Assembly (NCBI RefSeq): GCF_036046055.1 | Contig: NZ_CP107939.1 | Location: 3,162,001-3,226,000, forward strand | Length of the DNA: 64,000 bases | Source: Nocardia sp. NBC_00403 | GTDB lineage: Bacteria > Actinomycetota > Actinomycetes > Mycobacteriales > Mycobacteriaceae | Direction of reading: 5' to 3' | Part shown: positions 17,987 through 64,000 of the stretch, one piece after another | Layout: each line of letters begins with the position of its first letter | Numbering within the stretch: the first letter of the stretch is position 1 | The notes under the pieces: generated by a model | Seen by the model: only the letters and a program-made list of their open reading frames with translations | What the model was told of the DNA's origin: nothing | The model's database searches: none | Made by a program: the position numbers and the translations under genes

Positions 17987-18059
17987 TCCCCTATAGCTCA
18001 ATTGGCAGAGCAGCCGACTGTTAATCGGCAGGTTTCTGGTTCGAGTCCAGATGGGGGAG
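17987..18059 (+). tRNA. tRNA-Asn (GTT)
   Basis: A 73-base cloverleaf. The acceptor stem TCCCCTA pairs with TGGGGGA; the D arm is GCTCAATTGGCAGAGC; the anticodon stem-loop GCCGACTGTTAATCGGC carries GTT; the T arm is CTGGTTCGAGTCCAG. G59 is the discriminator and CCA is not encoded. Its 3' end serves as the integration site of the element that follows. Confidence 0.97.
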
Positions 18060-18060
18060 C
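18038..18060 (+). other. Probable attachment site in the tRNA-Asn 3' end
   Basis: The T arm and acceptor end of tRNA-Asn are the usual core of tyrosine-integrase att sites, and the integrase gene starts about 80 bp further on in the expected orientation. The exact core cannot be fixed because no second copy was found in the window. Confidence 0.5.
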
Positions 18061-18138: not shown

Positions 18139-19353
18139 TCAGCCTGCGAGGTGGCCCAAGGCCGCCGTGAAGTCGGGTGCTTCGGTGGGTTGGTCGATGT
18201 AGTGGCGTTTGGTGACGGAGTCGTTGGCGTGGCCGAGTTGCCGGGCCGCGGCCTGGGGGCCGTACTGGTCGGCGATGAGGGATGCGACGGTCTTGCGGAA
18301 GGTCTTGGGGGTGACCCAGGCGAACTGCTCGCCGCGTGCTTGGCGCCACAGGCGGTTGAAGTTGTGGGGATCCCAGATGCCGCCATCGCGGTTGGGGAAG
18401 ACCAGGTCCAGTTCGTTGGCGAGTGCTTCGGCCTTGACCCGTCGGAGGGTGTCGATGACGAATTGGGGGAGGACCACTGTCCTGTAGCCGGAGTCGGTCT
18501 TGGTCCATTCCTGGCGGATCAAGCCTTTGCCTTTGATGCGGATGATGGTGCCGGAGAAGGTGATCCGTGCCGGCTTGCTGTCGAGGTCGACATCGCACCA
18601 GCGCAGGGCGAGTGCTTCGCCGGGGCGTGGACCGGTTCCGAGTTCGACGTCGGCGACGTCCAGGACTCTCGGATTGCGTTTGGGACCGTAGGTGTAGGCG
18701 GGTGCGCCGTCGAGTGGCTTTCCGGCGACCCACTCCTGGAGTTGGGTTCGCAGGTCCGCGAGGGTCTCGAGATCGGCCGCGCGCGGTTTCTGGCGCTTGC
18801 GGGGAAGGTCTGCGACCTCGCGGACCGGGTTGCGGTCGATGGCGTCGTGGCGGACGGCCATGCTCATCATCTCCGACAGGATGACCCGCTGCCGCCGCGC
18901 CTTCTCCCGGTGTCCGTTGAGAACAATCCGCTTCAGGTGCGCATCGATGCGGGAGGTGGTGGCCTCCCACACCCGCAGGCCGCCCAGCGCTGATTTGATC
19001 TTGACGGTTCCTTTGCTCGCCCTGCAATCGGTGGAAACCTCGATCTCCATTCGGTACAGGTCCAGCGTCTGCTCGGTAATGCCTTCTTGCAGAACTTTTT
19101 CCGCCAGCCACAGGTCGGCCAGATCGGTGAGCTTCGTGTCCCGGGTGATCAGCCGGCCCCGGGCTCCGGTGCGCTGAGTGAGTGATTCCCGCAGGGTATC
19201 TTCGGCCCGGCCCTTGGTGGTTCCGAACTTGTGTACGGTGCGGGTGATGCCGTCGTCGTCTCGGTAGCGCGTGGTTGCACGCCAGCTTCCGTTCGGCTGC
19301 CGCTTGGAGGTGATCCGGCCGTAGGTGCTGAGTGGAAGCGATTGTCTGGGCAA
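18139..19353 (-). CDS. int: Tyrosine site-specific integrase
   Basis: 404 residues. It has an N-terminal arm-binding region (YGRITSKRQPNGSW, as in phage integrases) and a core-binding SAM-like domain at about 75-175. The catalytic domain has Arg243 in GTGPRPGEALAL, Lys285 in TKTDSGYR, Arg353 in PKTFRKT, His375 in QLGH and the nucleophile Tyr385 in RHYID. The usual HxxR motif reads KTFR, with Lys350 in place of His. TTG 19353 is the start, with AGGAAGGA seven bases upstream. It should catalyse recombination at the tRNA-Asn site. Confidence 0.93.
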   Translation of the reverse strand: MPRQSLPLSTYGRITSKRQPNGSWRATTRYRDDDGITRTVHKFGTTKGRAEDTLRESLTQRTGARGRLITRDTKLTDLADLWLAEKVLQEGITEQTLDLYRMEIEVSTDCRASKGTVKIKSALGGLRVWEATTSRIDAHLKRIVLNGHREKARRQRVILSEMMSMAVRHDAIDRNPVREVADLPRKRQKPRAADLETLADLRTQLQEWVAGKPLDGAPAYTYGPKRNPRVLDVADVELGTGPRPGEALALRWCDVDLDSKPARITFSGTIIRIKGKGLIRQEWTKTDSGYRTVVLPQFVIDTLRRVKAEALANELDLVFPNRDGGIWDPHNFNRLWRQARGEQFAWVTPKTFRKTVASLIADQYGPQAAARQLGHANDSVTKRHYIDQPTEAPDFTAALGHLAG

Positions 19354-32132: not shown

Positions 32133-32291
32133 CGGAATGCTAGCGCGTCGTGCGCGATTGCTAGGCGAACCCGTCCAGATCGGGGTTACCTCGTCCAGCT
32201 CCCGTCGCCGCGATGGATTCCTGCTGATCGTTGATCGAAGATCCGTGCCTGTGGCGTAGATCGGCTGGGTATTACCTGCTAGAACCAACCC

Positions 32292-32654
32292 ATGGCGATC
32301 GACAGGCTCCAGCGCATGGTTGCGGAGTTCGCGGCGGAGCGAGCGTGGGAACGTTTCCATACCCCCAAGAACCTCGTCATGGCGCTGACCGGGGAGGTCG
32401 GTGAGCTGTCCGAGCTCTTCCAATGGCTAACCGCCGAGCAGAGCCAGGCGCTCATGGGCGACCCGACGCGGCGCACTCCCGTCGAGGAGGAGGTCGCCGA
32501 CGTTTTCATCTATCTGCTGCGACTTGCTGATGTCCTGCAGATCGATCTCGTTGCCGCAGTTGAAGCGAAGTTACGGAAGAACGCCGAGCGCTATCCGATC
32601 CAGCAGGTTTACGGCCAAGCAGTCAAATACACGGAACTCGGCAGCAGGGATTAG
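32292..32654 (+). CDS. MazG-like nucleotide pyrophosphohydrolase
   Basis: 120 residues of the MazG/RS21-C6 type: KNLVMALTGEVGELSELFQW (E-x-x-E motif) and then VEEEVADVFIYLLRLADVL (E-x-x-D motif) bind magnesium, and AKLRKNAERYPIQ closes the domain. It cleaves (d)NTPs to monophosphates. ATG 32292 is the start. It is divergent from the DUF2075 helicase gene; the shared 159-bp region probably carries both promoters. Confidence 0.88.
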   Translation: MAIDRLQRMVAEFAAERAWERFHTPKNLVMALTGEVGELSELFQWLTAEQSQALMGDPTRRTPVEEEVADVFIYLLRLADVLQIDLVAAVEAKLRKNAERYPIQQVYGQAVKYTELGSRD

Positions 32655-41587: not shown

Positions 41588-42187
41588 CCCAGGAGATCCC
41601 CAACAAATAACCTGACGCCCAGTTTCTAACTGGAGGCATAGGCCCGACCATAGGCAGACGGAAGCTGTGTAATGCCTTGCAGCGCTGGCCGTGCGCAGGC
41701 GCATGCGCGCAACTCGGCAATGCCGGATGTTCTGCGCGACCGCGTCGCGGATGTACGGTGCAGCCGGACGTATGAACCGGCTGACGGTACGGTCAGGTCC
41801 ACACCGTCTGAGGATCTCCACGATGCTAGCGTCGGCGCTCGTCGAGCTTTGGTCGGGTGCTGTTGTCAGATCGCAGTACACCAGCGCGTCGACCAGCAAT
41901 TGGTCATCCAGAAGCGGGTCGGATTCCAGCTCTGCGCGACGCCCCCGGCTCCTCGACGCCGGGCAGCGTCAATGAAGGGTCGGCGACCAACCGAACGACT
42001 CGGTCATCCGTCGCATGCTCGTCTCGTAGGAACGAGCACTATCGCCCCTTTGGTCTCGCCAACTATGCGCCACAAAGAGTTTCGCTCACTTAGCCTTGTG
42101 TGGCAGACTGGAAAGCTTGCCGCAAGCGGTGGGCTCGTGTGTCCTGCTATACCACGTCTGTCGACCATCCTTAGGGGGATCTGCGGT
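41588..42187. other. Intergenic region upstream of the helicase operon
   Basis: About 600 bp. The helicase frame is open back to 41672, but this part is low-quality (Arg-rich, no motifs), so it is treated as untranslated leader and promoter DNA. Nothing else was recognised. Confidence 0.4.
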
Positions 42188-45100
42188 ATGACTGCGCAGC
42201 TGGAGAGTGCGAAGGCCGATGTTGTTGTCGCCAAGGTCGCCGAGTGGCGTAATCGGCTGATTGATCTCGGTTTCCGCAACACTCTGCTTTACTTCCGCAA
42301 TACCAAGCACGGCAGCCTGGATCTGACCGCAGCCGAAGCTTCGGGGCTTGCGGACCTCGAAGCAGGCAAGCAGGTGACGTTGCGTGTTCTGTTCCGGGAG
42401 ACGAGCGCACACAAGGACGCCTGCGCCCGTGCTCGCAGTCTCAGTCGACGCATCAATCTGTTCGCCGAAGAACAGGGCATCGATGTTGGGCGGGTTGCGT
42501 TCGGGCTTATCCAAACCGTCCCAGCCCAGCACAGGGGTTCGACCGCCATCCCTGCGCTACGTGCCCCGCTCGTCCTACGCCCTGTTGCACTCAAGGCACG
42601 CACTGCGGCGGAAAGCGACTACAGCCTGGAGCTCGGCGAGGAAATCGAGTTCAACCGGGTACTTCTATACGCACTGGATAGCCAGTACGGCATTGACGTC
42701 GATCAGATTCGCGGACGATTGGATCAGATTCTCGCTGAGACTGCCAATCGAGACACAGTGGTGGAGCGCGCCTTTACTGAGCTCGCCAGGGTGGCTAGCG
42801 CCCAAGGTATTGAGCTGCAGCTCGACCCTGCCGTCGTGCTCGGCACATTCAACTACGAGAAGCTGGCGATGGTTGAGGATCTCGCGACCGCCACGGATCT
42901 GCTTGTCTCACATGATCTTATCGCAGCTTTGGCGGGAGACCCGTCGGCGAAAGAAGCTCTCGTAGTGGCAGGCGCCGAATACCAGGCGCAGGACATCAAT
43001 GAACTGAGACCCGCCGATGAGTTCCTTGTACATGACGCAGATTCATCTCAGCACCAGGCTGTGATGGCTGCGCTCGCGGGTCAGCATGTTCACATCGAAG
43101 GCCCGCCGGGCACCGGAAAGAGCCAGACGATCGCGAACATAATCGCGGGCGCCGCCGCTCATGGAAAGCGTGTCTTGTTCGTTGCCGAGAAGCGCGCGGC
43201 GATCGACGCGGTCATGAATCGGCTGGTCAACGTCGGGCTCGGTGGACTGATGTTCGACCTACATTCAGAGCGTGCCACCAAGCGAGAAGTCGCGCGCCAG
43301 CTCGCCGAAAGTCTTGACCGGGTGAGCAAGGAGCCTCAGGTCGAGGCCGATGCGGTTCACAGCCGATTGGTGGCATCGCGACAGTTGCTCCTCAACCACT
43401 CTCAGGAATTGCACGCTCGACGTGAGCCCTGGGGTATGAGCGCGTACGAGGTGCGGGCTCGACTACTCGATCTGCCGGAAGTGGGCGTGGCATGCGCTTT
43501 TCGTGGCCAGCAGCTCAGATCCCTCGATGCACATGTCGTTCGGCTACTCGAAGAGGATTTGAAGGAGTTCATAGACCTTGGAGGTTTGAAGATTCTCCGG
43601 CAGGAGACGCCGTGGTGCCACACCGAGGTTCGCGACGAACAGCAAGTCGAGCAGATCCTCGTCCAGCTGGATCAACTCGCTGGCCACACCCTCAAGCGCA
43701 GCCAACTCGGCGTGGATCGGTTGCTGAGCCAGACCGGGCTCGCCAAGCCGGACAACATCATTGGTTGGCAGGATGTGCTCACCTTCCTCGACGATGTCTC
43801 CAAAACTGTCGATACGTTCGGGCCGGATATCTTTGGCGACAATCTGGACACCTTCTATCTCGCAACGGGAGACCGGCAGCAACGTAAGCGCATGGCACCG
43901 GACCAGAAGCTGGGTTGGTTGCCGCGCCGCCGGCTAGTCAAGCAGCTGCGCCAGATGACGCAAGGCAAGATCCGCGGCAAGGCAACCTTGCACACCAAAC
44001 TGAACGATGTTCGCGAGCAGCGTCATCGCTGGAAGCAACTGGGAAGGCCTGACACCGAGCCCTCGCGCGTCGATGGCCTTGCTCAGGTCAGCGACGACTA
44101 CCAGCTACTGCGAACAGAGTTGGCTGCCGTGGCACTCTCTGCACGACGCCCCGATCTCGAGTCTGGCTCCGTGCCCGAGGTTGGGGATCGCCTCGAGGAG
44201 TTGCGCGCTGACAAGGACATGCTGTTCCGGATGCCTCGGCTCAACCGACAGCTGGAGGGCTTCGGTGCCGTCGGACTCGACGCTTTCCTGAAGGACGTGG
44301 CACAGCGGAACCTCTCGGCCGAGGAAGCGTGGCAGGCGTTCCTGCGAGTATGGCTCACCTCGCTGGATGACGAGTTCAAACTCCGAGTGCCCGAGATCGG
44401 ACAGTTCGTGCCAGAACGGCAGACTCGGGCAGCAGACGAGTTCTGTTCAACAGATATCCAGCACCGGGAGTTAGCGGCACGGCGAGTGCGTCGCCAGTTG
44501 GCTCGACAAGTTCGGCAGGCTAGCGACGCGTACCCGGAACAGACCCGAATTCTCCGGCAGCAGGCCAGTCGCAAGAGCCGACATATGTCGACCCGCAAAC
44601 TGGTCGAGCAGACCTCGGATGTCCTTCTCGCCCTTCGACCATGCTGGGCGATGTCGCCGCTGGTCGTCAGTCGTATGTTGCCAGCTGAGCAGTTGTTCGA
44701 TCTGGTCATATTCGATGAGGCCAGCCAGATTCGACCCCATGACGCGATCACCTCCATCATGCGCGGTGCGCGGGTGGTTGTTGCCGGAGACGAGAAACAG
44801 CTGCCACCCACCGACTTCTTCCAAAAGGTGCTGGAGAGCGACGAGGACGAGGACGTCGAGGACAGCCTGTCGGACTACGAGTCAATCCTGACAGCGCTGC
44901 GGCCACTCCTGCCGATTGCGAAGATGTTGACCTGGCACTACCGCAGCGCCGACGAGCGACTGATCGCGTTCTCCAACCGCGAAATCTATAAGGACAAGCT
45001 AGTCACCTTTCCGGGTTCGACAAAAGAGAGCCCGGTATCGCTAGTGCGCGTCGACGGTCGGGCATCACCAGGCCAGGATGGTTCTTCGCCCGAGGAGGTC

Positions 45101-46201
45101 GCCAAGGTTGTCGAGTTGGTCATCGATCACGCTCGATCGCAACCCACCGAGACTCTTGGTGTTATCGCGCTGAACGTCAAGCATCAAGCCCGAATTGAGC
45201 GGGCGCTCAGCCAGGCACGGCAAGAGCATCCTGAGGTGGATGAGTTTTTCGCCGAAGACATCGAGCCCAGTCGGCGGTTCTTCGTCAAGAACCTGGAAAG
45301 TGTTCAGGGCGACGAACGCGACGCGATCATCCTCTCCGTCGGTATCGCGCGTGACGCCGCAGGCCGGATCTCCGGCAATTCCTTCGGCCCGCTCAACCGC
45401 GAAGGCACCGAGCGTCGGGTCAATGTTGCGGTGACACGAGCGAAGCAGCGGATGACAGTCGTCGCCTCGTTCTCCGCGGCCGACCTGGCACCCACAGCGA
45501 AGAACGGAACCGCATTACTGCGGCTCTATCTCGATTTCGCAGAGCGGCACGGCCGGATCGAGGAGGTTGGCGCACCGACTGACGTGGCGTTGAACGGATT
45601 CGAACGGGCGATCTACGACGCATTGAAGGCGCGAGGTGTGCCTGTCCACCCGCAGTGGGGTGTTTCGGACTATTGCATCGACTTCGCACTGGCACATCGG
45701 GATCAACCCGGGCGAATGATCCTCGCGGTTGAAGCGGACGGCCACCGATACCACAGCTCGGCATCCGCACGGGATCGCGACCGGCTACGCCAGGCGCACC
45801 TCGAGAAGTTGGGCTGGCAGTTCCATCGCCTGTGGTCCTCGGCATGGTTCCACGATCCGCAAGTTGAGACCGACAAGATCCTCGCAGCCTGGCGCCAGGC
45901 CATGACCGAGGCTGATACCGCGCCTTCACCAACGCCGACACCAGATCCGGCACCTCCGCAGGTCGCGCACCGTGGCCCTCGTCCAAATGTGATGGCCGGC
46001 CTGAAGACTCACGAGTACAGCGACCGGCAGCTCGTCGAGATCTGCAGCTGGTTGATGACCGACGGACTGCAATTGGATAAGGAGCAGCGGCTCGTCCAGG
46101 CGATGACGGAACTGGGGTTCCGCCGCCGTGGTACCAGGATCACCGAACGGCTGATGAAAGCGATCGAGATCGCCCAGCGCCTTGCCGATCAGGAGGAATG
46201 A
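42188..46201 (+). CDS. DUF4011-type SF1 helicase with C-terminal Vsr-like nuclease
   Basis: 1,337 residues from ATG 42188 (GGGGGA upstream). The N-terminal DUF4011 motif is EWRNRLIDLGFRNTLLYF. The split superfamily I helicase has Walker A IEGPPGTGKSQT (about 304-313), a long helical insert, and then Walker B LVIFDEASQIRP (about 841). Later motifs are VVAGDEKQLPP, LTWHYRS, SVQGDERDAIILS and NVAVTRAKQRM. Residues about 1135-1225 form a Vsr/MTES_1575-like endonuclease (YCIDFALAH, AVEADGHRYH, RQAHLEKLGWQFHRLWS). It is a DNA- or RNA-directed helicase-nuclease of the kind seen in defence islands (e.g. COG1112-type helicases). The next gene starts 1 bp after its stop. Confidence 0.88.
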   Translation: MTAQLESAKADVVVAKVAEWRNRLIDLGFRNTLLYFRNTKHGSLDLTAAEASGLADLEAGKQVTLRVLFRETSAHKDACARARSLSRRINLFAEEQGIDVGRVAFGLIQTVPAQHRGSTAIPALRAPLVLRPVALKARTAAESDYSLELGEEIEFNRVLLYALDSQYGIDVDQIRGRLDQILAETANRDTVVERAFTELARVASAQGIELQLDPAVVLGTFNYEKLAMVEDLATATDLLVSHDLIAALAGDPSAKEALVVAGAEYQAQDINELRPADEFLVHDADSSQHQAVMAALAGQHVHIEGPPGTGKSQTIANIIAGAAAHGKRVLFVAEKRAAIDAVMNRLVNVGLGGLMFDLHSERATKREVARQLAESLDRVSKEPQVEADAVHSRLVASRQLLLNHSQELHARREPWGMSAYEVRARLLDLPEVGVACAFRGQQLRSLDAHVVRLLEEDLKEFIDLGGLKILRQETPWCHTEVRDEQQVEQILVQLDQLAGHTLKRSQLGVDRLLSQTGLAKPDNIIGWQDVLTFLDDVSKTVDTFGPDIFGDNLDTFYLATGDRQQRKRMAPDQKLGWLPRRRLVKQLRQMTQGKIRGKATLHTKLNDVREQRHRWKQLGRPDTEPSRVDGLAQVSDDYQLLRTELAAVALSARRPDLESGSVPEVGDRLEELRADKDMLFRMPRLNRQLEGFGAVGLDAFLKDVAQRNLSAEEAWQAFLRVWLTSLDDEFKLRVPEIGQFVPERQTRAADEFCSTDIQHRELAARRVRRQLARQVRQASDAYPEQTRILRQQASRKSRHMSTRKLVEQTSDVLLALRPCWAMSPLVVSRMLPAEQLFDLVIFDEASQIRPHDAITSIMRGARVVVAGDEKQLPPTDFFQKVLESDEDEDVEDSLSDYESILTALRPLLPIAKMLTWHYRSADERLIAFSNREIYKDKLVTFPGSTKESPVSLVRVDGRASPGQDGSSPEEVAKVVELVIDHARSQPTETLGVIALNVKHQARIERALSQARQEHPEVDEFFAEDIEPSRRFFVKNLESVQGDERDAIILSVGIARDAAGRISGNSFGPLNREGTERRVNVAVTRAKQRMTVVASFSAADLAPTAKNGTALLRLYLDFAERHGRIEEVGAPTDVALNGFERAIYDALKARGVPVHPQWGVSDYCIDFALAHRDQPGRMILAVEADGHRYHSSASARDRDRLRQAHLEKLGWQFHRLWSSAWFHDPQVETDKILAAWRQAMTEADTAPSPTPTPDPAPPQVAHRGPRPNVMAGLKTHEYSDRQLVEICSWLMTDGLQLDKEQRLVQAMTELGFRRRGTRITERLMKAIEIAQRLADQEE

Positions 46202-51124: not shown

Positions 51125-51639
51125 CGGGTCAACTCCTTGAATCCGAAGTTCGGGTCCGACCGTCAATCGGCACGGGCACTGGCCGTAGTATGCGGCCCGT
51201 GTCCGACATGAACTGTTGGCCCACAACATCATTCAACGACCAAGCGGTCGGTGCAGGGCTGCCGCTCGTGGCGGCGGATTCGCTGACCGTGCTGGCAGGC
51301 AGCCACAATGTGCAAGACGACAAATAACCGATGGCGGTAGGTGGCGAATTTCCGTCACCCACCGCTCGTCCTTCGCTCCATGTCGACCGACTGCAACACG
51401 GTGCGACCCGCCTGGCATAAGTCCATGATCACCCATCTCGTCGAGCTCCGACTGAAAACCAGCGGCAACACCAGAGATCGCAGGGAGTGGGCCTGCGATC
51501 GCGGCCTAATCATCAATACTGTTGGGGTACAGCAGTTTCTGAGTGAGGGTGTTGCGGCAGATCAAGAGAGCGGCTCGCCTCGGTGCGGCAGAGTGGTACA
51601 GGACCTGGCACACAGGTTCGGCTGGGCGGAAGGAACATC
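51125..51639. other. Intergenic region, nothing firm
   Basis: About 515 bp between divergent genes; short frames only. It should hold promoters for both sides. Confidence 0.4.
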
Positions 51640-52605
51640 GTGGATCAAGCCAGAGACATCCGACGCAAGGTCACGGTAGATGCAACCGAACTCGCGTATA
51701 CCCGCGCGACCGGACCGTTCTTGTGCATCGGATGCAGGGCTTCGATGATCCCGGTTGCAGTGGGTTCGACGAAGGTCATGCCGCACTTCCGCGTACAGCC
51801 CAATCACGAACCCACCTGCAATGTGGCTGGCCGCCCCGTTCCGATCGCGCCAGCAGATTCCCTGGAGGACGCTCAAATCGAGCGCCTCGGCGGGGTCGCC
51901 ATCGCCTACAAACTGATTCGGCCGACGGTTCACGAAGAAGTTGATCCTGACTCGGACACCGAACCTCAGCAGCGATCGACCCGCTCTACCTCCGGCTCAT
52001 CGGACTCCGAGACCGGTACCGGATACCGGGAGACTGCCGCCTCAACGATCCGCCCGTTCTGCCGGACCTACATCGAGCACCCGAACCTCCGAACGCGCCT
52101 GCGGATCGCGATCCCCGAGATCGAGGCGGACTACTACCAGTTCGCCTTCAAGAGGCTGGAACACGACAAGATCGTGGCCCACCCACTCCGCCGGATCTTC
52201 TACGCACAGGTGGCATGGAGCATCAAACCGAAATTCACTGCCGATACCGCCGAAATCGCCCTGTACGCCGGCGAGCGCGATCCCGAGCGACCCGCGCGAG
52301 TTCTCCGCGGATACCGGGTTGTCATCGACTGGTCGAACTGGAATCCGACGACACGGCTGGCCCTCCAGCGGGAAATCGATGCCGCCCATGCCGACGCGCG
52401 CCAGCACACCGGGACAGCCGCGAAGACATGGCTGTTCTTCCTCGGTACACAGGATCCATCCGACGACGCGAACCTGGGGGTCGATCACCACAGTGACTAT
52501 GTGTTCCTCACCGCCGAGATCAACTACCCGAAACCAGCCAAGACCATCCAGCGTCCGGGACGCAACAGGCTCGGACCCTCACCACGACGTCGCCGACCGC
52601 GCTGA
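51640..52605 (+). CDS. CoiA-like zinc-knuckle protein of unknown function
   Basis: 321 residues from GTG 51640, with GGAAGGA five bases upstream. The N-terminus has a probable zinc site: Cys29 and Cys32 in FLCIGC, His49 in PHF and Cys60, the pattern of CoiA-type competence-associated proteins. An acidic low-complexity linker (about 100-130) follows, then a domain with TYIEHPNLRTRLRIAIPEIE, RVVIDWSNWNPTTRLAL and TAAKTWLFFLGTQDPSDDA. No catalytic motif typical of the CoiA nuclease was identified in the C-terminal part. Confidence 0.6.
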   Translation: MDQARDIRRKVTVDATELAYTRATGPFLCIGCRASMIPVAVGSTKVMPHFRVQPNHEPTCNVAGRPVPIAPADSLEDAQIERLGGVAIAYKLIRPTVHEEVDPDSDTEPQQRSTRSTSGSSDSETGTGYRETAASTIRPFCRTYIEHPNLRTRLRIAIPEIEADYYQFAFKRLEHDKIVAHPLRRIFYAQVAWSIKPKFTADTAEIALYAGERDPERPARVLRGYRVVIDWSNWNPTTRLALQREIDAAHADARQHTGTAAKTWLFFLGTQDPSDDANLGVDHHSDYVFLTAEINYPKPAKTIQRPGRNRLGPSPRRRRPR

Positions 52606-53665: not shown

Positions 53666-56410
53666 TCAGAACAGGTCATCCCAGGTCCATTCGGGGGAGC
53701 CGGTGCCATCGGTCTCCCGTCCGAACCGGAAGTCCTCCGGATTTGCGATGTTTCCCAGAAAGAGATCAAAGCTCCCGACTGCGGGCAGGCGGGCATTCAG
53801 CTTCTGCGTTTGGTCGGTCCACTTCCCATCCCGTAACTCCTGCACCAGCTCTACGGGGTCGATTAGTGCATTGGGAGGGGTATCGGACACGGCCCGCTCG
53901 GCCAGTGCTCGTGCCTGGTCGGTCAACCCCCGCTCCCGCAAAAACTTCAGCAGCCACCCGATGCCGATTGCGTCGAAGAGATCAACGACAGCTACGGCGC
54001 GCTCGGCCATCGCCTGCGCCTGGTCGGTCCACCCACCATCCAGTAGCGCCTCTAGCATTTGCAAGACACCAAATGAGTCGTCGAGATCTGCCTCAGAGAC
54101 GGCGTGCTCGACCGGGATTCGAGCCAGGTCCGTCAACCCCTGCGCTCGCAAAACCTCCAGCAGCCATGCGAGAACAGCTGGGTTGTAGAGATAGACGGTA
54201 TTAGAGACCGCGTGGTCGAATAATTCTTGCGCCTTGTCAGTCCATTCTCCCTCATCCAGCTCGTACAGCAGCGCCTCAGTGCCGACCGGAGCATCGGGGC
54301 CGTGGAAAATGTCGGGGGACAAGGCTCGCTCGACCAACTCTCTTGCCTGGTCAGTCCACCCGCCTTCCCTCAGCCCCTTCAGCAGTTCAGCGGCTGATTC
54401 CGCACCGTCGAAGGAAGCGACGGCGGGCACAGCGCACTCGACCAATTCCCGTTCCTGGTCGGTCCATCCGCCCTCCCGCAGCTCCGTCAACAGACGCCCG
54501 ACCCAGAACGGGTTGCCACGAAGAACGACAGCAGATACTGCGCGCTCGACCAGTTCCCGTTCCTGGTCGGTCCATCCGCCCTCCCGCAGCTCCGTCAACA
54601 ACTCCGCAATGCTGTACGGGCGGTTGTAGAGATCGGCGACGGACACAGCGCGCTCAGCTAGCACTCTTGCCTGGTCAGTCCACCCGCCCTCCCGCAGCTC
54701 CTTCAGCAGCTCCGCGATCTCTGCTGGGTCGCTAGTGACGACAGTGGGTGCAGCTCGCTCGGCAAGTACCCGCGCCTGATCCGCCCTTCCCCCCTTCCGC
54801 AGCTGCTTCAAGAGCGCACCAACCTCAGGCGTGTTGGTCTCATCCGAATTGATGTGGTTGATGACCCAGTCTGTCGGGCGTTCGTCACGAGGATGCACAA
54901 CCCGCAGCAGATCAATCAATTCAGCAGCGGCGGTGACGTTCCCAGTACGGGCGGCCTCAACCCACAGTTGGGCGGCGTCACGGTAGAGGCCACGGCAGCG
55001 TGCGGCGCGGCCGAGGACGGCGCGGTCGCCGGGGTGGGCATACTCGGTGAGAGCCTCCCAGAATTCGATCGGTGGGATGATCTGCGCACGCTCTGTGCGG
55101 CGGCCGTGCTGGTCGAGGTAGTCGGCCAGCTGGTACACCGGCCCATTGGCCGTATTCGCGCCTGCGGACGGGCTTGCCTGGGATCGGGTTCTATGGGAGC
55201 GCGTGGGTGCGGCAGCGACTCGGGCCAGTGGCCCGTCGGCACCTTTGCAGGGGCGTGCGGTCTCGGCCAGCGCCTGTTCGAGCCAATCAGGCCTTGCGGC
55301 AACAGCGTTCCATTGATCAGGGATGTAGGAATGGGTGGCGGCGGCCAACAACCCGTGCGGAATGGCGTTGCGGTGACCCATGTGCCGGGCGTCCATCGCG
55401 ATCTGCACGATCGCTTTCGCAACGGCGGAGAGCTCATGCTCGTAGCGGTGCAGCAGCTCCGGCCCGCCGGCCAGATACTGGGTGATGCGTCCGTGCTCAG
55501 CCCGGGCACTCGCAACGGCAAATCGCGGATCTGTCTCGGCGGCTGAGGCCAGTGTCTCCGGGTCGGCGTCGGTGAACGAAACGGGGACCTCGAGGATCGT
55601 GGCGCTGTTCGCAAGCAGGTCTCGTACCTGCGAGGCGTGTGGGCTGCGCAGCTCGGTGTAGTACTCCCTCCAGAGGGTGCCGACGATCAGGACTGGGGCG
55701 CGGGCCGGGTCGCGCAGCAGTTCCCGCAGCGCGACCGCGGCCTTCTCGTCTCCGCCGCGTCCGTCTCCGCCGAGGTATTCCTGGGACTCGTTGAGCCACA
55801 AAACAGTCCGTGGTCGCACTCGCCCGAGATTCTCATGCAGCGCGGTGCGCCTGTCCGGGCTGGTCGGATGCCACAGCCGCCACCCACCTCGCTCCCGCAG
55901 CGGCGACAACGCCTCCCATAGGGCGCGAGTCTTGCCGGTGGAGGAATCCCCCAGCAGCAACACGAACCTGCTGTGCCCCTCTCCGACCGCGGTAACGATC
56001 TCCGCCAAGGCGATGTCGTGAGAACGCGGTACGTAGGGTGTCAGCGTTCCGTCGTCGTGCCAGGGTCGACTGATGGTGATGGGCTTGTGCACGCCTAGTT
56101 CGATCGGGTCCAGTTGCTCGGTGAGTGGCTCTCCAACTTCGTCCTGGCTCGCACGCTGGTAGGCATGCTCCCATGCCGCCAGCTCCTGACTGGTCACCTG
56201 GCAGGCTGTAAGGATCGGTTCGACGGTATCCCACCGGGGCAGGTGGGTGACACCGCTCAGGATGTTGCTCAGCGTCGACTTGCCCAACTCGACACCGACG
56301 TCGTTCACCAGGGCGACGATCCGGTTCTGGCTCAAGTGCTTGCTCTTGAACAACGCACGCAGCGCCGTGCGTAGATCTTGCGGTGTTATCACCGCGTCGA
56401 TGTCGGTCAC
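53666..56410 (-). CDS. HTH/P-loop STAND-like protein with 36-residue repeats
   Basis: 914 residues from GTG 56410. Residues about 10-70 are a helix-turn-helix region (LSQNRIVALVNDVGVELGKS, TLSNILSGVTHLP). The P-loop is LLLGDSSTGKTRALWE (Gly154 to Lys160), with TVLWLNESQEYLGG as Walker B-like. From about residue 535, around ten 36-residue units of the type ELLTELREGGWTDQERELVE run to about 870, giving a helical solenoid. The last 40 residues end SPEWTWDDLF. A DNA-binding ATPase with a repeat sensor is the natural reading. The repeat family was not recognised. Confidence 0.8.
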   Translation of the reverse strand: MTDIDAVITPQDLRTALRALFKSKHLSQNRIVALVNDVGVELGKSTLSNILSGVTHLPRWDTVEPILTACQVTSQELAAWEHAYQRASQDEVGEPLTEQLDPIELGVHKPITISRPWHDDGTLTPYVPRSHDIALAEIVTAVGEGHSRFVLLLGDSSTGKTRALWEALSPLRERGGWRLWHPTSPDRRTALHENLGRVRPRTVLWLNESQEYLGGDGRGGDEKAAVALRELLRDPARAPVLIVGTLWREYYTELRSPHASQVRDLLANSATILEVPVSFTDADPETLASAAETDPRFAVASARAEHGRITQYLAGGPELLHRYEHELSAVAKAIVQIAMDARHMGHRNAIPHGLLAAATHSYIPDQWNAVAARPDWLEQALAETARPCKGADGPLARVAAAPTRSHRTRSQASPSAGANTANGPVYQLADYLDQHGRRTERAQIIPPIEFWEALTEYAHPGDRAVLGRAARCRGLYRDAAQLWVEAARTGNVTAAAELIDLLRVVHPRDERPTDWVINHINSDETNTPEVGALLKQLRKGGRADQARVLAERAAPTVVTSDPAEIAELLKELREGGWTDQARVLAERAVSVADLYNRPYSIAELLTELREGGWTDQERELVERAVSAVVLRGNPFWVGRLLTELREGGWTDQERELVECAVPAVASFDGAESAAELLKGLREGGWTDQARELVERALSPDIFHGPDAPVGTEALLYELDEGEWTDKAQELFDHAVSNTVYLYNPAVLAWLLEVLRAQGLTDLARIPVEHAVSEADLDDSFGVLQMLEALLDGGWTDQAQAMAERAVAVVDLFDAIGIGWLLKFLRERGLTDQARALAERAVSDTPPNALIDPVELVQELRDGKWTDQTQKLNARLPAVGSFDLFLGNIANPEDFRFGRETDGTGSPEWTWDDLF
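53850..54800 (-). repeat. 108-bp tandem repeats within the STAND-like gene
   Basis: Units 108 bp apart share GGTCGGTCCATCCGCCCTCC and neighbouring bases; the copies at about 54451 and 54559 are nearly identical over 40 bp. Outer copies have diverged, so the array seems to grow from the middle. Confidence 0.75.
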
Positions 56411-56990: not shown

Positions 56991-58058
56991 GTGACCGATT
57001 CGAACGGTACTGAACGTCTCGGTGTGTACGGCGTTGGACTCCAAATCGCCAAGCTGGGCTGGATCTTTCGCATCCAGTCCGAATCTGACTTCGGTGTGGA
57101 TGCGCATGTAGAGATCGTCGCGGATGGGCGGGCCACAGGGAGACTGATTGCGCTGCAGATCAAGTCAGGCCCTGCCTACTTCAGGGAACAGGCACGTGGC
57201 GGCGGGTGGGTAGTGCGGGGCAAGAAGCGAAACATGGTGTACTGGCGTGACCATCAACTGCCAGTGCTACTTGTCCTTCATGACGCCGGCACTGGATGCA
57301 CGTATTGGACCCACATCAATCCGAGCGGTGAACCGGTCGATCATCAATTTACCCCCAACGGATTCAAAGTCGTTGTGCAAGAGACACATCGGCTCGACGA
57401 AGACTCAAGAGATCTCATCTCGTCGATCGCCGAGCGCTGGGTTCCTCGTCGAAACTCCGAGTGGTCCTGGTTGCATGACCGGCTGACAGGTGAGAACGCG
57501 GCTGGCGGTTTGCTCTCACCGCCGGATGCACTTTGGGATGCATTCGTGACTCGGGTCGCCGGGCGAGCCTCATTGTCGGCTCCCCAGCTCCGCCAGTCAG
57601 TGCTGGTCTACAACTTGCCGTTGATCGGGGGATCACGGGCAGCGAAGGCTAGTAGTTCGCCCATGCCAACAAGAATCCCGCTCGAAGAGCTACGAACCAG
57701 TTGGGCGATACAACCGGACACCACAGTGTTCGTCTGCGAGAACTTGGTGGTGATCGACAGCGCTGTGCGCGCGCTCGGGGAGGAGTGCATGCCGCTCGTG
57801 CACCTCGGCGGCTACCCAAACTTGGCGGTGGAGTACCTGCTGTTGGCGCTGGGGCTTTGTGGAGCGAAGCTGCGAGTCCATACAGACCACGACTCGCACG
57901 GGGCTGGTATCACGCGGCTGCTGTTTCATAGGTTGATCGAATACGAGTTGTGGTGTCCCAATCCGTCAGCCGATCAACTTGCTGAGGTTGCGCCTTCGAT
58001 TCGTCGAACTGTAGAAGAGGATTGTCTGCCGTACATGCTGCACGACCTGCGCCGCTAG
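56991..58058 (+). CDS. DUF4365-DUF2399 fusion (nuclease-like plus TOPRIM)
   Basis: 355 residues from GTG 56991 (VTDSNGTERLGVYGVGLQIA). Residues about 15-160 follow DUF4365, a PD-(D/E)XK-like fold: FGVDAHVEI with Asp37 and Glu41, then LIALQIKSGPAYF with Gln56 and Lys58. Residues about 235-320 follow DUF2399, the TOPRIM-like domain of Wadjet JetD: VFVCENLVVIDSA with Glu250, PLVHLGGYPN, then RVHTDHDSHGAGI with Asp299 and Asp301. JetD normally has DUF3322 in front and JetA-C beside it; here neither is present. Both metal sites look intact. It may be a stand-alone two-nuclease defence protein (inference). Confidence 0.8.
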   Translation: MTDSNGTERLGVYGVGLQIAKLGWIFRIQSESDFGVDAHVEIVADGRATGRLIALQIKSGPAYFREQARGGGWVVRGKKRNMVYWRDHQLPVLLVLHDAGTGCTYWTHINPSGEPVDHQFTPNGFKVVVQETHRLDEDSRDLISSIAERWVPRRNSEWSWLHDRLTGENAAGGLLSPPDALWDAFVTRVAGRASLSAPQLRQSVLVYNLPLIGGSRAAKASSSPMPTRIPLEELRTSWAIQPDTTVFVCENLVVIDSAVRALGEECMPLVHLGGYPNLAVEYLLLALGLCGAKLRVHTDHDSHGAGITRLLFHRLIEYELWCPNPSADQLAEVAPSIRRTVEEDCLPYMLHDLRR

Positions 58059-58729: not shown

Positions 58730-61700
58730 TCAGAGTCCCAAGTCGGTGTCCGGCTCCCATGCGATCGGAGCCTCGATGAACTCGAGTGAGCCGTTCTCGT
58801 CGGGATTTGTTTGATGTCGCAGTTGCTGTTCGGCCGCCAGCTGAACTTCGTTGAGCATCCTGCGGCGCTGCTGTTCGGTCCGTAGCTCATCGATTTGCCG
58901 CCGAAAGTCGGCGATTCGAGCACGGGTATCAGCATCGGCGGCAGTGTCCTGTTGGACGGGTCGCTGGGGTGTGCGTTCGGGGTCTGGTGTGGCGAGAAGC
59001 CGGTCCCACCCGTCGGCGGCGCTGGCGTAGAGGGCGGCATCGCGTTGGGCTTTGAGGGCGGTGCTGCGTGCCGATTCTCGGGTGTCGGTGCGGTTCTTTT
59101 GTTCAGTGAGGAGTGCGTCGATGCGGGCCTGGACTTCGCGGCGTGTTCCACGACGGTAGGCGGGTGTGGCTTTGAGATCGCTGCGGGCGGTGTCGAGTTC
59201 GGTTGCCGTGGCTTGAACTGCCTGGACGGCATCGCTGAGTTCCTGCTCAGCGGAGCGGGCGTTGCGGATCGCCTCCTGCGCCGCGTGGTGGCGGCGGACT
59301 TCGCCGTCGTAATCCGCGTCGCTGCCCTGCCGATCGAGGGCGGGGCCGTAGAGGACCGTTTCGTTATCGACGAGTTCGATGCGCAAGTGAACGTCATCGA
59401 TCTGTTGCTGTAGTTGCTCGTCGCTGAGAACGATGAGCGGATTCTGCAATGGCGGGTCGTCTGGCGCCGTGGCTTGTGATTGGGGGGTTGTGTCCTCGTG
59501 CGGATGTGTGTCGATCCAGGCGCTGATGGCTAGGCGTTCTGAGAGGGTGCGGGCAGCGCGCCAATCACGCCGGAGCATGGCACGCACAGTTGCGGGTGGT
59601 TGGGTGGCGGCGATGTGGTCGCAGCGCGCACGAATGTGCTCGGCGGCGTGGTGGTCGGGTATGGCGGGTTCGTCGTTGTCGCGGCATTCACTGCACAGGC
59701 CGTCGTCGCTGCGGCGCGGCAGGCGTGGGGTGGTGTCGATGACTGCCCGGCCGATCCCGCAAGCTACGCACGGTAGTGCGCGAGTAACGCGAACCGCGAA
59801 CCGGTCGTAGTCGGGTTCGATCGGTTTGTCGGCGTCGGGTTCTTCGATCACTTTGCCCCGCATGGTGAATTCCATGGAGGTATCGATGTCGGGTTGTTCG
59901 AGGTGAGTGGGTTCGCGGAGGAGCGCGTCGCAGCGCCAGGCCAGTGCGCTGGCGAGTTGTTCGGGTCGCAGGTTCATGGCGCCGTCGGGTTGGGCGCCGA
60001 GGATCAGTTCATTTGCGGTGGTGAGCAGTTCGCGTGGCGTCCAGCCGGTACCTGTAGCGCGGTCGATGGCGGCGACGAGACGTGGCCACGCCGGGTCGTT
60101 GATCACGCGGTCGCTGATGTCGTCACCGAATAGCGCGTGGAGTTCCGGGGCCCAATCGGGGCGGAGGTTGTGGTGGGCGGTGCTAGTGTCGGCGGCGGAT
60201 GGTTCGAGTTCCAGTCGCGACCACAGGGCGGCGGCGGGCATGTCGTCGGGCAACGGTCGTATCCCGGCGGCGTGGATCAGCAGTGTTTCGATGTCGATTC
60301 CCGATCGGTTGGCGACCTCGATTTTGTCGGCCATGGTCGGCCACCACGGATCTGCAATAACTCGGACTTCGAGTCGTTCGATCACCGGTGCCCATTTGTT
60401 GGCGGGGAGATGGAGGTCGCCGAGCGCGCCAGTGACGCGGACGCCGAGAAGATCTTGGTGTTCGCGTTCGGCCACTGTGTAGCGAGGCGGACCGGTCGGG
60501 CGTAGGTCGCGGTCATCGACGTGTAAGGAGCTGCGCCACAACGCGAGATCAGAGAGCAGGCGCGGGTCCGAGCCGATCAGCGGGCGCGCCCAATGCGGCG
60601 ACGACACGGGAGTCCAGGCCTGCACGTCGGTGCGGATCTGGTCGGCGAGGTCGGCGACGATGCGCGCACGCGCGGAAAGCTGGGTGGAATCGCGCTCAGC
60701 GCGCAGCCCACGAGGTATCCCGGACGCCCACGGCAACGGCCCGCTACCGGTGGAGTGTGCGCCGGAGGGATCCAACCGCCAATCCAGCACAGCGGCAACA
60801 TCATCGGCGGTGTCGAGTTCCCGCGCACTCGCGGCGGCGTGCAAGGCCGCGATCGGGTCGCGACCCGACAGTGCGATCGTCGCCAAATGCTGACGGAGTA
60901 CTGGGTAGGCGGGGCTGTCGGTAAGGTTCGGACGCAACGTTTCCGCGGCGGTGTCGAGCTGCTCGAGACCGTCAGCGCCGAGTGCGTTTTCGGCGGCGAC
61001 CCCGATCGCATCGAGGTAGATATCGAGCGCGCGACCGATACGGTGATGCGGGTCGAGCGCATCTCTCAGCATGGTGTGCGCCGACTTCTGCGCACCGTCG
61101 CGACCGAGAATGCGCAACAGGATCTCCACGGCGGTGCGTGGATATACGGCGGGTTCGGACCAGAACGAGCCTTCGGAACCGTCCAAAGCGGTCGGCACGT
61201 ACGCGTGATTGGCGTGTACTCCGCGGGTGAGTGCGACGTAAAGCTGTTGGCGCGACTCACCTCCGGTGAGCGCGACATGGCACGAGTCGGCGGTGATTCC
61301 TTGCGCGGAATCGATCGTTGTCGCGTAACCCAGACGCACGTGCGCGCTCACATAGTCGGCGGGAATTCGCACCGTGTGCCCGTTGTGGCCGTCGGCGTGG
61401 CGGTGGATGGCGGTGATACTGCGGTCGTCGTGGACGGCGGTGACGGTCCAGGCGTAGCCGTTGCGGACCCAGTCACGCTCGCCCAGGCGTAATCGTGGGT
61501 TGTTGCGGCGAGTGCGAATCAGGTCACCGACCGAGGCCGCAAGTCTGTCGGCGAGTACACATTCCGCGCCAACCTCACCGCCGTCGCGGGCGATGCGGTC
61601 GGCGCGGGCGCGGGCGTTGAGCTCGGTCACGACGTCGTGGGTCGCGGCCAACATGATGGTGTCGCGGCCGGCGAGGTGGTCGGTTAGCCACGCGGTGAAG

Positions 61701-64000
61701 GCGTCGTCGTGGGTGGCGCCGAGGTGCCCGGCATGGATGCGGCCGTTGTCCAGATACCAGCCGAGTGCGGCGGGGTCACCGTCGCGCAGTTGCAAACTCG
61801 CTGTCGCTTCGGCGCCGGAGGCGAACCGCACGACGTGGGTCAGGGTGAGTGAATGCTCGGGTGCGGCCCGGTCGATGTCGCGATCGGCGCCGCCGGCTTC
61901 GATCGAGGCGAGCTGTTGGGGGTCGCCGATACAGCGGACCGTCGCACCCCGCGAGGTTAGGAATCGCAGCAGGCGAAGGCGTTTGAGGTTGCCGACCTTG
62001 ACGTGCTCATCGACGATCACCAACGTGCCCGGGTCGATTTGCAGCACCCATTGCGGCAACGACGGCGGCTGTTCCCGGTCCAGGGCGAGGTTGTCGCGGC
62101 TGGGGGTGTGCTTGGTGAGAACGTCGAGGACCTTGTCGACGGTTTCCACGCGCGCACCGATCGACTCACCCAGCACCGCCGCGGCCGATGCGGTCGGTGC
62201 CAGGCCCAGGACTTGGCCGCCGCTGGCATGCCAGGCGTCGGCGAGTACTCGCATCGCGGTGGTCTTGCCCGACCCCGCTGGGGCATTGGTCGTTTGCACC
62301 CGCAGGTTCGAGCCAGCGAAGCCCTCGATCACGCTGATCTGCCCAGCGTTCAGGGGGCGATCCGGATTCTGGGCGTTGTGGTCGCGCACCGCCGCCGCGA
62401 CGAGATCGCGTGGAAGTTGGCGTCCGCCGGGTTGCACCGACATCTCGATCAACTGTCGTTCGACCGACAGCGTCTGCGCCGTCGTATACAACTGCGCATC
62501 CGAGGAGGTGTACACGCTGGTCCCGTCGCGGCGACGCAACAACACCGGCACAGTCCGCAGTTCAGGTTCATCGGTGAGGTCGGGATCTTCGAGAGCAACC
62601 GAGAGCGCCGGGGAAACCGCCTCGGCGAGTACGGCTTCGGCGACCTGCTGCCACTCCTCGCCGCTCACTCGTCCGCGTAGTTGTCGTTCGATTTCGGCCC
62701 GCAGATTGTGGTGCTGCCACGTTGACCGGTGCTGCGAGACGACCTCGACGACGTGCTCGGCGGCGTGGGTAATCCACTGAGTCGTGACCGCAGAGCGCGC
62801 AGGTCGGACCGGATCAAGTGCCGCGGTGACCATCCGCGCCACCGCGTCCCGGCCACCGAGCAAAGCCACAGCCTCGGCCCGCCAGATGCTGCGCTGCGCG
62901 GCCAGGGACCGCAGCGCGTGCTTGATGGGGCGGGTCTCGAGGGTGGCGCGCTCGGCCAGGTCATACATTTCACCCGGGATCGGTTCGCGCCCGAGCTGCT
63001 GTTGGAACTCGGCGGCGAGCTGCCCCAGGCGGGCGGTGATTGCGGTGTCGCGGCGCGACCAGGCGGTGATCAATCGCGGTGGAACATTGACGATTTCACG
63101 GATCGGACGCTTCGAGGGATCCTGCCCGGGGCGTTCGGCGAACTCGACGCCGACGAGATGCTCGAGGTGGTGTTCGAGTCTGGTGTTGTAGATCTCGGAG
63201 ACCGTGACGAGTGTTTGGTAGATCGTGGTGCCGGCGAGGGTGCGCCATGTGCCGTCGAGGGTGCGCACACGGTTGGCCATGAGAACGTGGGTGTGCAGGT
63301 CGGGGTCACCGGCGCGGCTGTCACGATGGGTGAATACGGCCGCGACGAGACCCTCGACATGGACCTGACGGATCCCGTTTCGGCCGAGCCGGGTGAAGAT
63401 GCCGTGCCCCTCGAGCCACCGCAGTGCATCCTTGACGGCGGCATGGTGAGCGGCCTCGATCTTCTCCGACACCGCCCTGGGTGCCACCGCCCATAACACC
63501 GAGACGCTCTTGACCGGACTAAAGGTGATGTCGAAACCAGCGACCGCGGTGGTGTTGGGGCGCGAGTTGCGGGCCACCCAGCCTGACAGTTCCCGCGCAT
63601 CCAGGGGTGCACGATCGTACTGTTTGGTGAACATTTCGAACGCGACCTGGGTGCGGATGTGTGCCCGTTCGTCATCAGCAATAGCGTCATGAGGGGCGAA
63701 TCCGTGTGCGGAATTGTATTCCTCGAAGGCGTTCGCGCACCTTTTTCTGAACTCGGAAACTTCGCCATATACGCGGAATGGGTTACCTAGACGCGACGCT
63801 TGGTCGGCTGCACGTGTGGCGTCTTTGTGCTTGGCGCCCTTGCTCATCTCGGTGTCGTAGACGCGGGCTTCGATCACTTCGGCGTTCGGATGACGACCTA
63901 GCCCGAACAGGGATTTCAATTGTTCTTCGGTGACCTCATCACCTGGTTGGACGCCTAACGCAGTCAGGCCTGTGCCATGCCAGTGACCCGGTGCTTCCCC
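58730..64000 (-). CDS. MobF relaxase/helicase (TraA-like), 5' end beyond window
   Basis: Over 1,750 residues are visible; the frame stays open to 64000 (GEAPGHWHGTGLTAL at the edge), so the start is outside. The TrwC-type relaxase has KSLFGLGRHPNAEVIEA, AGFDITFSPVKSVSVLWA and the His cluster DPDLHTHVLMANRV (near 63290). The helicase half has Walker A NAPAGSGKTTAMRV (near 62270), VIVDEHVKVGNLKRL, RCIGDPQQLASIEAGG and QLYVALTRGVHANHAY. The C-terminal third has two CxxC pairs (CVACGIG, CSECRD) and a coiled coil. The tyrosine nucleophiles would be upstream of the window. It nicks oriT and unwinds DNA for conjugal transfer. Confidence 0.93.
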   Translation of the reverse strand, partial: GEAPGHWHGTGLTALGVQPGDEVTEEQLKSLFGLGRHPNAEVIEARVYDTEMSKGAKHKDATRAADQASRLGNPFRVYGEVSEFRKRCANAFEEYNSAHGFAPHDAIADDERAHIRTQVAFEMFTKQYDRAPLDARELSGWVARNSRPNTTAVAGFDITFSPVKSVSVLWAVAPRAVSEKIEAAHHAAVKDALRWLEGHGIFTRLGRNGIRQVHVEGLVAAVFTHRDSRAGDPDLHTHVLMANRVRTLDGTWRTLAGTTIYQTLVTVSEIYNTRLEHHLEHLVGVEFAERPGQDPSKRPIREIVNVPPRLITAWSRRDTAITARLGQLAAEFQQQLGREPIPGEMYDLAERATLETRPIKHALRSLAAQRSIWRAEAVALLGGRDAVARMVTAALDPVRPARSAVTTQWITHAAEHVVEVVSQHRSTWQHHNLRAEIERQLRGRVSGEEWQQVAEAVLAEAVSPALSVALEDPDLTDEPELRTVPVLLRRRDGTSVYTSSDAQLYTTAQTLSVERQLIEMSVQPGGRQLPRDLVAAAVRDHNAQNPDRPLNAGQISVIEGFAGSNLRVQTTNAPAGSGKTTAMRVLADAWHASGGQVLGLAPTASAAAVLGESIGARVETVDKVLDVLTKHTPSRDNLALDREQPPSLPQWVLQIDPGTLVIVDEHVKVGNLKRLRLLRFLTSRGATVRCIGDPQQLASIEAGGADRDIDRAAPEHSLTLTHVVRFASGAEATASLQLRDGDPAALGWYLDNGRIHAGHLGATHDDAFTAWLTDHLAGRDTIMLAATHDVVTELNARARADRIARDGGEVGAECVLADRLAASVGDLIRTRRNNPRLRLGERDWVRNGYAWTVTAVHDDRSITAIHRHADGHNGHTVRIPADYVSAHVRLGYATTIDSAQGITADSCHVALTGGESRQQLYVALTRGVHANHAYVPTALDGSEGSFWSEPAVYPRTAVEILLRILGRDGAQKSAHTMLRDALDPHHRIGRALDIYLDAIGVAAENALGADGLEQLDTAAETLRPNLTDSPAYPVLRQHLATIALSGRDPIAALHAAASARELDTADDVAAVLDWRLDPSGAHSTGSGPLPWASGIPRGLRAERDSTQLSARARIVADLADQIRTDVQAWTPVSSPHWARPLIGSDPRLLSDLALWRSSLHVDDRDLRPTGPPRYTVAEREHQDLLGVRVTGALGDLHLPANKWAPVIERLEVRVIADPWWPTMADKIEVANRSGIDIETLLIHAAGIRPLPDDMPAAALWSRLELEPSAADTSTAHHNLRPDWAPELHALFGDDISDRVINDPAWPRLVAAIDRATGTGWTPRELLTTANELILGAQPDGAMNLRPEQLASALAWRCDALLREPTHLEQPDIDTSMEFTMRGKVIEEPDADKPIEPDYDRFAVRVTRALPCVACGIGRAVIDTTPRLPRRSDDGLCSECRDNDEPAIPDHHAAEHIRARCDHIAATQPPATVRAMLRRDWRAARTLSERLAISAWIDTHPHEDTTPQSQATAPDDPPLQNPLIVLSDEQLQQQIDDVHLRIELVDNETVLYGPALDRQGSDADYDGEVRRHHAAQEAIRNARSAEQELSDAVQAVQATATELDTARSDLKATPAYRRGTRREVQARIDALLTEQKNRTDTRESARSTALKAQRDAALYASAADGWDRLLATPDPERTPQRPVQQDTAADADTRARIADFRRQIDELRTEQQRRRMLNEVQLAAEQQLRHQTNPDENGSLEFIEAPIAWEPDTDLGL

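Follow-up and report, generated by a model that had tools for sequence, protein, structure and literature searches.

A gene joining DUF4365 and JetD-type TOPRIM domains on a conjugative element of Nocardia sp. NBC_00403

The fusion gene and its two domains

The stretch of DNA analyzed here (the window) covers 64,000 nucleotides of Nocardia sp. NBC_00403 (contig NZ_CP107939.1, positions 3,162,001 to 3,226,000), and our subject is a gene on its plus strand (56991..58058) that encodes a DUF4365 domain fused to a JetD-type TOPRIM domain. A preliminary description of this DNA had proposed such a 355-residue two-domain protein, and this was borne out: the reading frame runs from a GTG start with no internal stop, both domains exceed their Pfam cut-offs, and the identical 355-residue protein is already in the protein records (P0002; 100% identity, 100% coverage). 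The frame stays open upstream to 56919, and the alignment of relatives puts the family start near residue 1. The N-terminal part is a PD-(D/E)XK-like nuclease domain of the DUF4365 or DREN type (residues 8-145; 57012..57425, plus strand), which matches Pfam PF14280 at 92.7 bits against a cut-off of 24.3. Pfam DUF2399 matches residues 231-315 at 48.2 bits (cut-off 23.4) within the JetD-type TOPRIM (residues 198-354; 57582..58052, plus strand), which profile alignment places on residues 223-408 of the JetD family TIGR02679 (P0051; prob 99.4, E 4.8e-22). The C-terminal part of the TIGR02679 model also matches residues 191-322 in NCBIfam, but its 61.9 bits fall short of the cut-off, which is 196, and the fusion is not a JetD by score. 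PADLOC gave five matches, each to one half of the protein, the best being JetD2 (191-321) and the Argonaute-associated nuclease Aga_REase (3-148), and no single PADLOC model spans the whole. The predicted structure, a monomer model, shows both the N-terminal nuclease core of DREN and a TOPRIM fold of the TopoVI-A/Spo11/JetD type, as the preliminary description had anticipated. One polypeptide thus joins what are, by sequence, two DNA-cutting-type domains of two different bacterial immune systems.

The residues expected of each nuclease are present. In a phmmer alignment, Asp37 (57099..57101) and Gln56-Ile-Lys58 (57156..57164) fall on D41, Q60, and K62 of the DREN domain of NbaSPARDA, which are named catalytic in the accessible part of PMC12205087. 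For TmuRE, a second DUF4365 protein, an inactive mutant was made by changing the corresponding Q-x-K pair (Q62A/K64A; PMC10810196, accessible part). The PD-(D/E)XK-like site first proposed for the fusion also included Glu41, and here the description needs amending: Asp37, Gln56, and Lys58 hold their catalytic places, whereas Glu41 aligns with E45 of NbaSPARDA DREN, placed at the tetramer interface in what is available of PMC12205087. In the TOPRIM half, Glu250, the metal-site Glu (57738..57740), follows the strand at 245-249, and the Asp299-x-Asp301 DxD motif (57885..57893) follows the strand at 293-297. The profile alignment puts these residues on E283, D332, and D334 of TIGR02679 and Glu342-Glu343 (58014..58019) on E396/E397, all of which are invariant in the 38-row TIGR02679 alignment. 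Mutation of either E236 or D279 in MksG drastically reduced cleavage, and for a Glu pair near the C-terminus of that protein (E349/E351) a correspondence to possible JetD nucleophiles is discussed (PMC10123090, accessible part).

Conservation was assessed in 17 fusions, namely 15 aligned protein records plus those of Lentzea aerocolonigenes (L003) and Kineosporia rhizophila (L004). D37, E41, Q56, K58, E250, D299, D301, and E342 are identical in 17/17 and E343 in 16/17, so the TOPRIM site of Glu250, Asp299, and Asp301 that had been called apparently intact stands as described. The 15-fusion alignment has 47 invariant columns out of 355, and all seven residues named beforehand from the sequence alone fall in them; the hypergeometric chance of this is 4.7e-7, or 9.7e-7 when only D/E/K/Q positions are drawn. 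Both nuclease sites therefore look intact.

Comparison with known systems shows what each half retains. The fusion has in common with the short Argonaute-associated DUF4365 nuclease of SPARDA (DREN-APAZ) its N-terminal DREN fold and the aligned catalytic D, Q, and K, but in SPARDA DREN is followed by APAZ, and in the fusion by TOPRIM instead. A Pfam scan limited to 11 proteins of the window, out of the whole genome, found no Argonaute. With type II JetD of Wadjet (TIGR02679; DUF3323-DUF2399) it shares everything from residue 223 of JetD onwards, which is the TOPRIM part, including the invariant E, DxD, and EE; the N-terminal ~222 residues of JetD, however, are absent, and there is no JetC near the fusion. 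It differs from MksG and type I JetD, and from topoisomerase VI-A/Spo11, in having no recognisable CAP domain; JetD and MksG are themselves reported to have no catalytic CAP tyrosine (PMC10123090, PMC10586767, accessible parts).

Relatives and distribution

The protein search returned 51 matches: 15 with both domains (own record included), 31 other DUF4365 proteins, 4 DUF3323-DUF2399 proteins, and one truncated near relative (P0005). The last is 90% identical to the fusion, with final residues read from another frame of the gene; either this copy is broken or the sequence contains an error. A genome scan, whose two search patterns were both drawn from the N-terminal half of the fusion, confirmed 45 loci, of which those of Lentzea aerocolonigenes and Kineosporia rhizophila span nearly the whole query. 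Full-length fusions were found in 2/397 genomes of the order (E<=1e-20; own genome counted) and, in each case as the own genome, in 1/394 of the class (E<=1e-40) and 1/150 of the genus (E<=1e-20). The DUF4365-TOPRIM fusion is rare. In an unrooted tree of 30 C-terminal regions, the 17 fusions lie on one side of a branch of length 1.16 with 100/100 support, and the 13 JetD sequences on the other; a single origin of the fusion is the simplest reading.

Three other matches (P0020, P0025, and P0042) resemble the fusion in pairing DUF4365 with another nuclease-type domain, and differ in that this second domain is an unrelated one of the PLD type (PF13091). The motif HxK(x)4D is present in two of the three, with HxR in the third, P0025. 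These proteins suggest that DREN has been paired more than once with another domain of nuclease type.

The breadth of the DUF4365 family also bears on whether both halves of the fusion cut DNA. DREN could be the sole working nuclease, with TOPRIM as a dimeriser that senses DNA or a ligand and either no longer cuts or cuts to no consequence, much as APAZ serves the DREN of SPARDA. DUF4365 heads many different proteins (31/51 matches are non-fusion DUF4365, P0005 excluded), open frames with a DUF4365 match reach >1200 residues, and the DREN of SPARDA is an effector driven by its partner domain (PMC12205087, accessible part). E250, D299, D301, and E342, however, are kept in 17/17 fusions over long branches, a degree of conservation that a mere scaffold has no obvious reason to show, and we regard a fusion with DREN as its sole nuclease as somewhat unlikely.

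The integrated element and the three fusion loci

The fusion gene lies on a mobile element, as had been suggested. A tRNA-Asn gene (gtt; 17987..18060, plus strand) serves as the attachment site, and its last 38 nucleotides recur with 94.7% identity outside the window at 93800-93837 (window-plus-downstream coordinates; L103:9800-9837), which delimits an element of about 75.8 kb. The tRNA is followed by the tyrosine integrase of the element (18139..19353, minus strand; PF00589, E 1.6e-12) and a small helix-turn-helix gene. A TrwC-type relaxase/helicase gene (58730..63919, minus strand; PF08751, E 7.8e-68) stands 671 bp from the fusion gene, which is thus carried on a conjugative element of ~76 kb at tRNA-Asn. 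On the other side of the fusion gene is a divergent gene (53666..56410, minus strand) for a 914-residue protein with weak matches to HTH_31 and AAA_16, both below the Pfam cut-off; it has no relative at the Lentzea and Kineosporia fusion loci.

Other defence candidates surround the fusion gene on the element. The window holds a 1509-residue helicase with an MTES_1575 nuclease domain (41672-46201; PADLOC PDC-S37, E 3e-266, and Hhe, E 4e-141), and a 340-residue relative of PD-Lambda-4_B (51583-52605; PADLOC, E 6e-29). About 14 kb beyond the right window end, a GajA/GajB-like (Gabija-like) pair was detected by PADLOC (L076:14085-17569). A 745-residue window protein (30186-32423) carries a helicase domain of Schlafen group 3.

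The fusions of the other two genomes have different surroundings. In Lentzea, T2SSE, TraG-type, TrwB-type, and PrgI genes lie within about 20 kb, while in Kineosporia the fusion starts 78 bp past a same-strand DUF4917 gene (PADLOC PDC-S21), with an AlbA_2 Schlafen gene nearby. We compared all frames of at least 70 residues, all against all, from the window with 20 kb of flank on either side and from the regions around the fusions of Lentzea (38.5 kb) and Kineosporia (21 kb). At E<=1e-6 only the fusion and an antisense frame of the fusion matched, so the three loci share no partner gene. The search for the same fusion and its neighbours that the preliminary description had called for thus yielded a rare protein with no partner common to three loci.

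Given this setting, the protein might serve the conjugative element itself, in its maintenance or in DNA processing, or be directed as a weapon at rival elements, and not be a general immune gene. Its distance of under 1 kb from the relaxase gene and the conjugation genes near the Lentzea copy favor this, but the fusion sits outside any conserved transfer module, the three neighbourhoods have nothing but the fusion in common, and 0/4 scanned Kineosporia neighbours is a transfer gene. We consider such a role quite unlikely.

Parent JetD loci, JetABC genes, and a proposed mode of action

TIGR02679, the parent family of this DUF2399 domain, carries an N-terminal DUF3323 (PF11796) in 120/120 among the matches listed, of 1709 (these rows include the query's own record). 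It is therefore DUF3323, at the N-terminus of type II JetD, that has been replaced in the fusion, and not DUF3322 as was first supposed: DUF4365 and a linker stand where the parent has its first ~222 residues, the CAP-like region included. Parent-type relatives reside in Wadjet-like loci. At L082, TIGR02677, 02678, 02680, and 02679 follow in order, each below its NCBIfam cut-off, and the same genes match JetA2/B2/C2/D2 strongly in PADLOC. At L081, a TIGR02680-matching frame precedes the TIGR02679 gene by ~2.4 kb, with one unscanned frame in between, and at L083 the check covered TIGR02677 alone.

According to the accessible parts of the cited papers, DREN on its own is an inactive monomer that fires upon tetramer formation (PMC12205087), and the JetD/MksG-type TOPRIM dimerises, with the CAP domain of JetD thought to hold TOPRIM shut (PMC10123090, PMC10586767). 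We propose that the TOPRIM nuclease/dimerisation domain of a type II JetD may have moved out of its SMC system and become attached to a DREN effector nuclease. By analogy with JetD/MksG and topoisomerase VI-A, two copies of the fusion would pair through TOPRIM and grip DNA, and because DREN stands in place of CAP, the dimer would bring two DREN domains together. Invading or replicating DNA might then allow assembly of the dimers and thereby clustering of their DREN domains, which in SPARDA are inactive when monomeric. Clustered DREN domains would cut DNA without sequence preference and the TOPRIM sites would cut the bound DNA, with the invader destroyed or the cell arrested as the outcome.

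The likeliest use of the fusion, to which we give about an even chance, is that of a single-gene, element-borne, stand-alone defence nuclease, and we infer an anti-plasmid or anti-phage role. A bolder version is one-protein immunity with two nuclease sites, in which an SMC-free TOPRIM dimer senses or cuts particular DNA and also acts as the scaffold on which DREN is assembled and switched on, doing the jobs of SPARDA Argonaute filaments and Wadjet JetABC; this remains tentative and on the doubtful side. The fusion would be a naturally occurring example of a nuclease domain that leaves the SMC sensor of Wadjet and is re-armed with an Argonaute-system effector nuclease. If active, it would offer a small single-protein system in which to ask what the JetD TOPRIM recognises when JetABC is absent, and whether DREN is switched on by nothing more than forced dimerisation. 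A literature search, with preprints and most subscription papers outside its coverage, found DUF4365 never together with Toprim or JetD and nothing mentioning DUF2399, TIGR02679, or JetD-like.

A stand-alone nuclease has to be weighed against one that works with SMC proteins encoded elsewhere. No JetABC operon surrounds the fusion, and the earlier statement that JetABC genes are missing holds for JetC in the element; the sole TIGR02680 of the genome is ~1.7 Mb off (4,944,663-4,948,712, or 4.94 Mb, with the fusion at 3.22 Mb), the genome-wide search having covered neither JetA nor JetB. For the chromosome the statement fails, since this TIGR02680 belongs to a TIGR02677-78-80 set, called JetA2/JetB2/JetC2 by PADLOC (4944495-4951816; L087:8496-15817). 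No JetD adjoins the set, a convergent frame on the far side of TIGR02680 not having been scanned. Three places were hit when the genome was searched for TIGR02679 at E values up to 0.1, namely a C-terminal piece at 3,905,472, the fusion, and a chance-level match (E 0.06), and no full-length TIGR02679. A partner in trans is therefore conceivable, and the fusion could supply a JetABC motor lacking its own JetD with a new nuclease.

The wider survey bears on this idea in both directions. JetC is over the cut-off in 3/3 fusion genomes vs 20/118 in the class (own genome counted), and two Lentzea TIGR02680 places have no over-cut-off TIGR02679 beside them, although one has weak TIGR02679 pieces nearby. 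The co-occurrence covers three genomes, two of which have no matched base rate, and is only a weak hint of a link in trans. Against it, the only over-cut-off JetC of Kineosporia and one JetC of Lentzea have their own adjacent over-cut-off JetD, the N-terminal part of JetD is gone from the fusion, and the fusion adjoins JetC at none of the three loci. Within Nocardia, moreover, TIGR02680 is over the cut-off in 116/148 genomes (132/148 at E<=0.001) and TIGR02679 in 29/148 (48/148 at E<=0.001), so a JetABC set without JetD is ordinary in the genus, and the chromosomal set is possibly a housekeeping MksBEF-like complex. Cooperation in trans thus seems very unlikely to us. The C-terminal JetD piece found in the TIGR02679 search (3905472-3905996; L074:7473-7997) occupies a 219-codon frame (218 residues) directly upstream of a 1274-residue frame.
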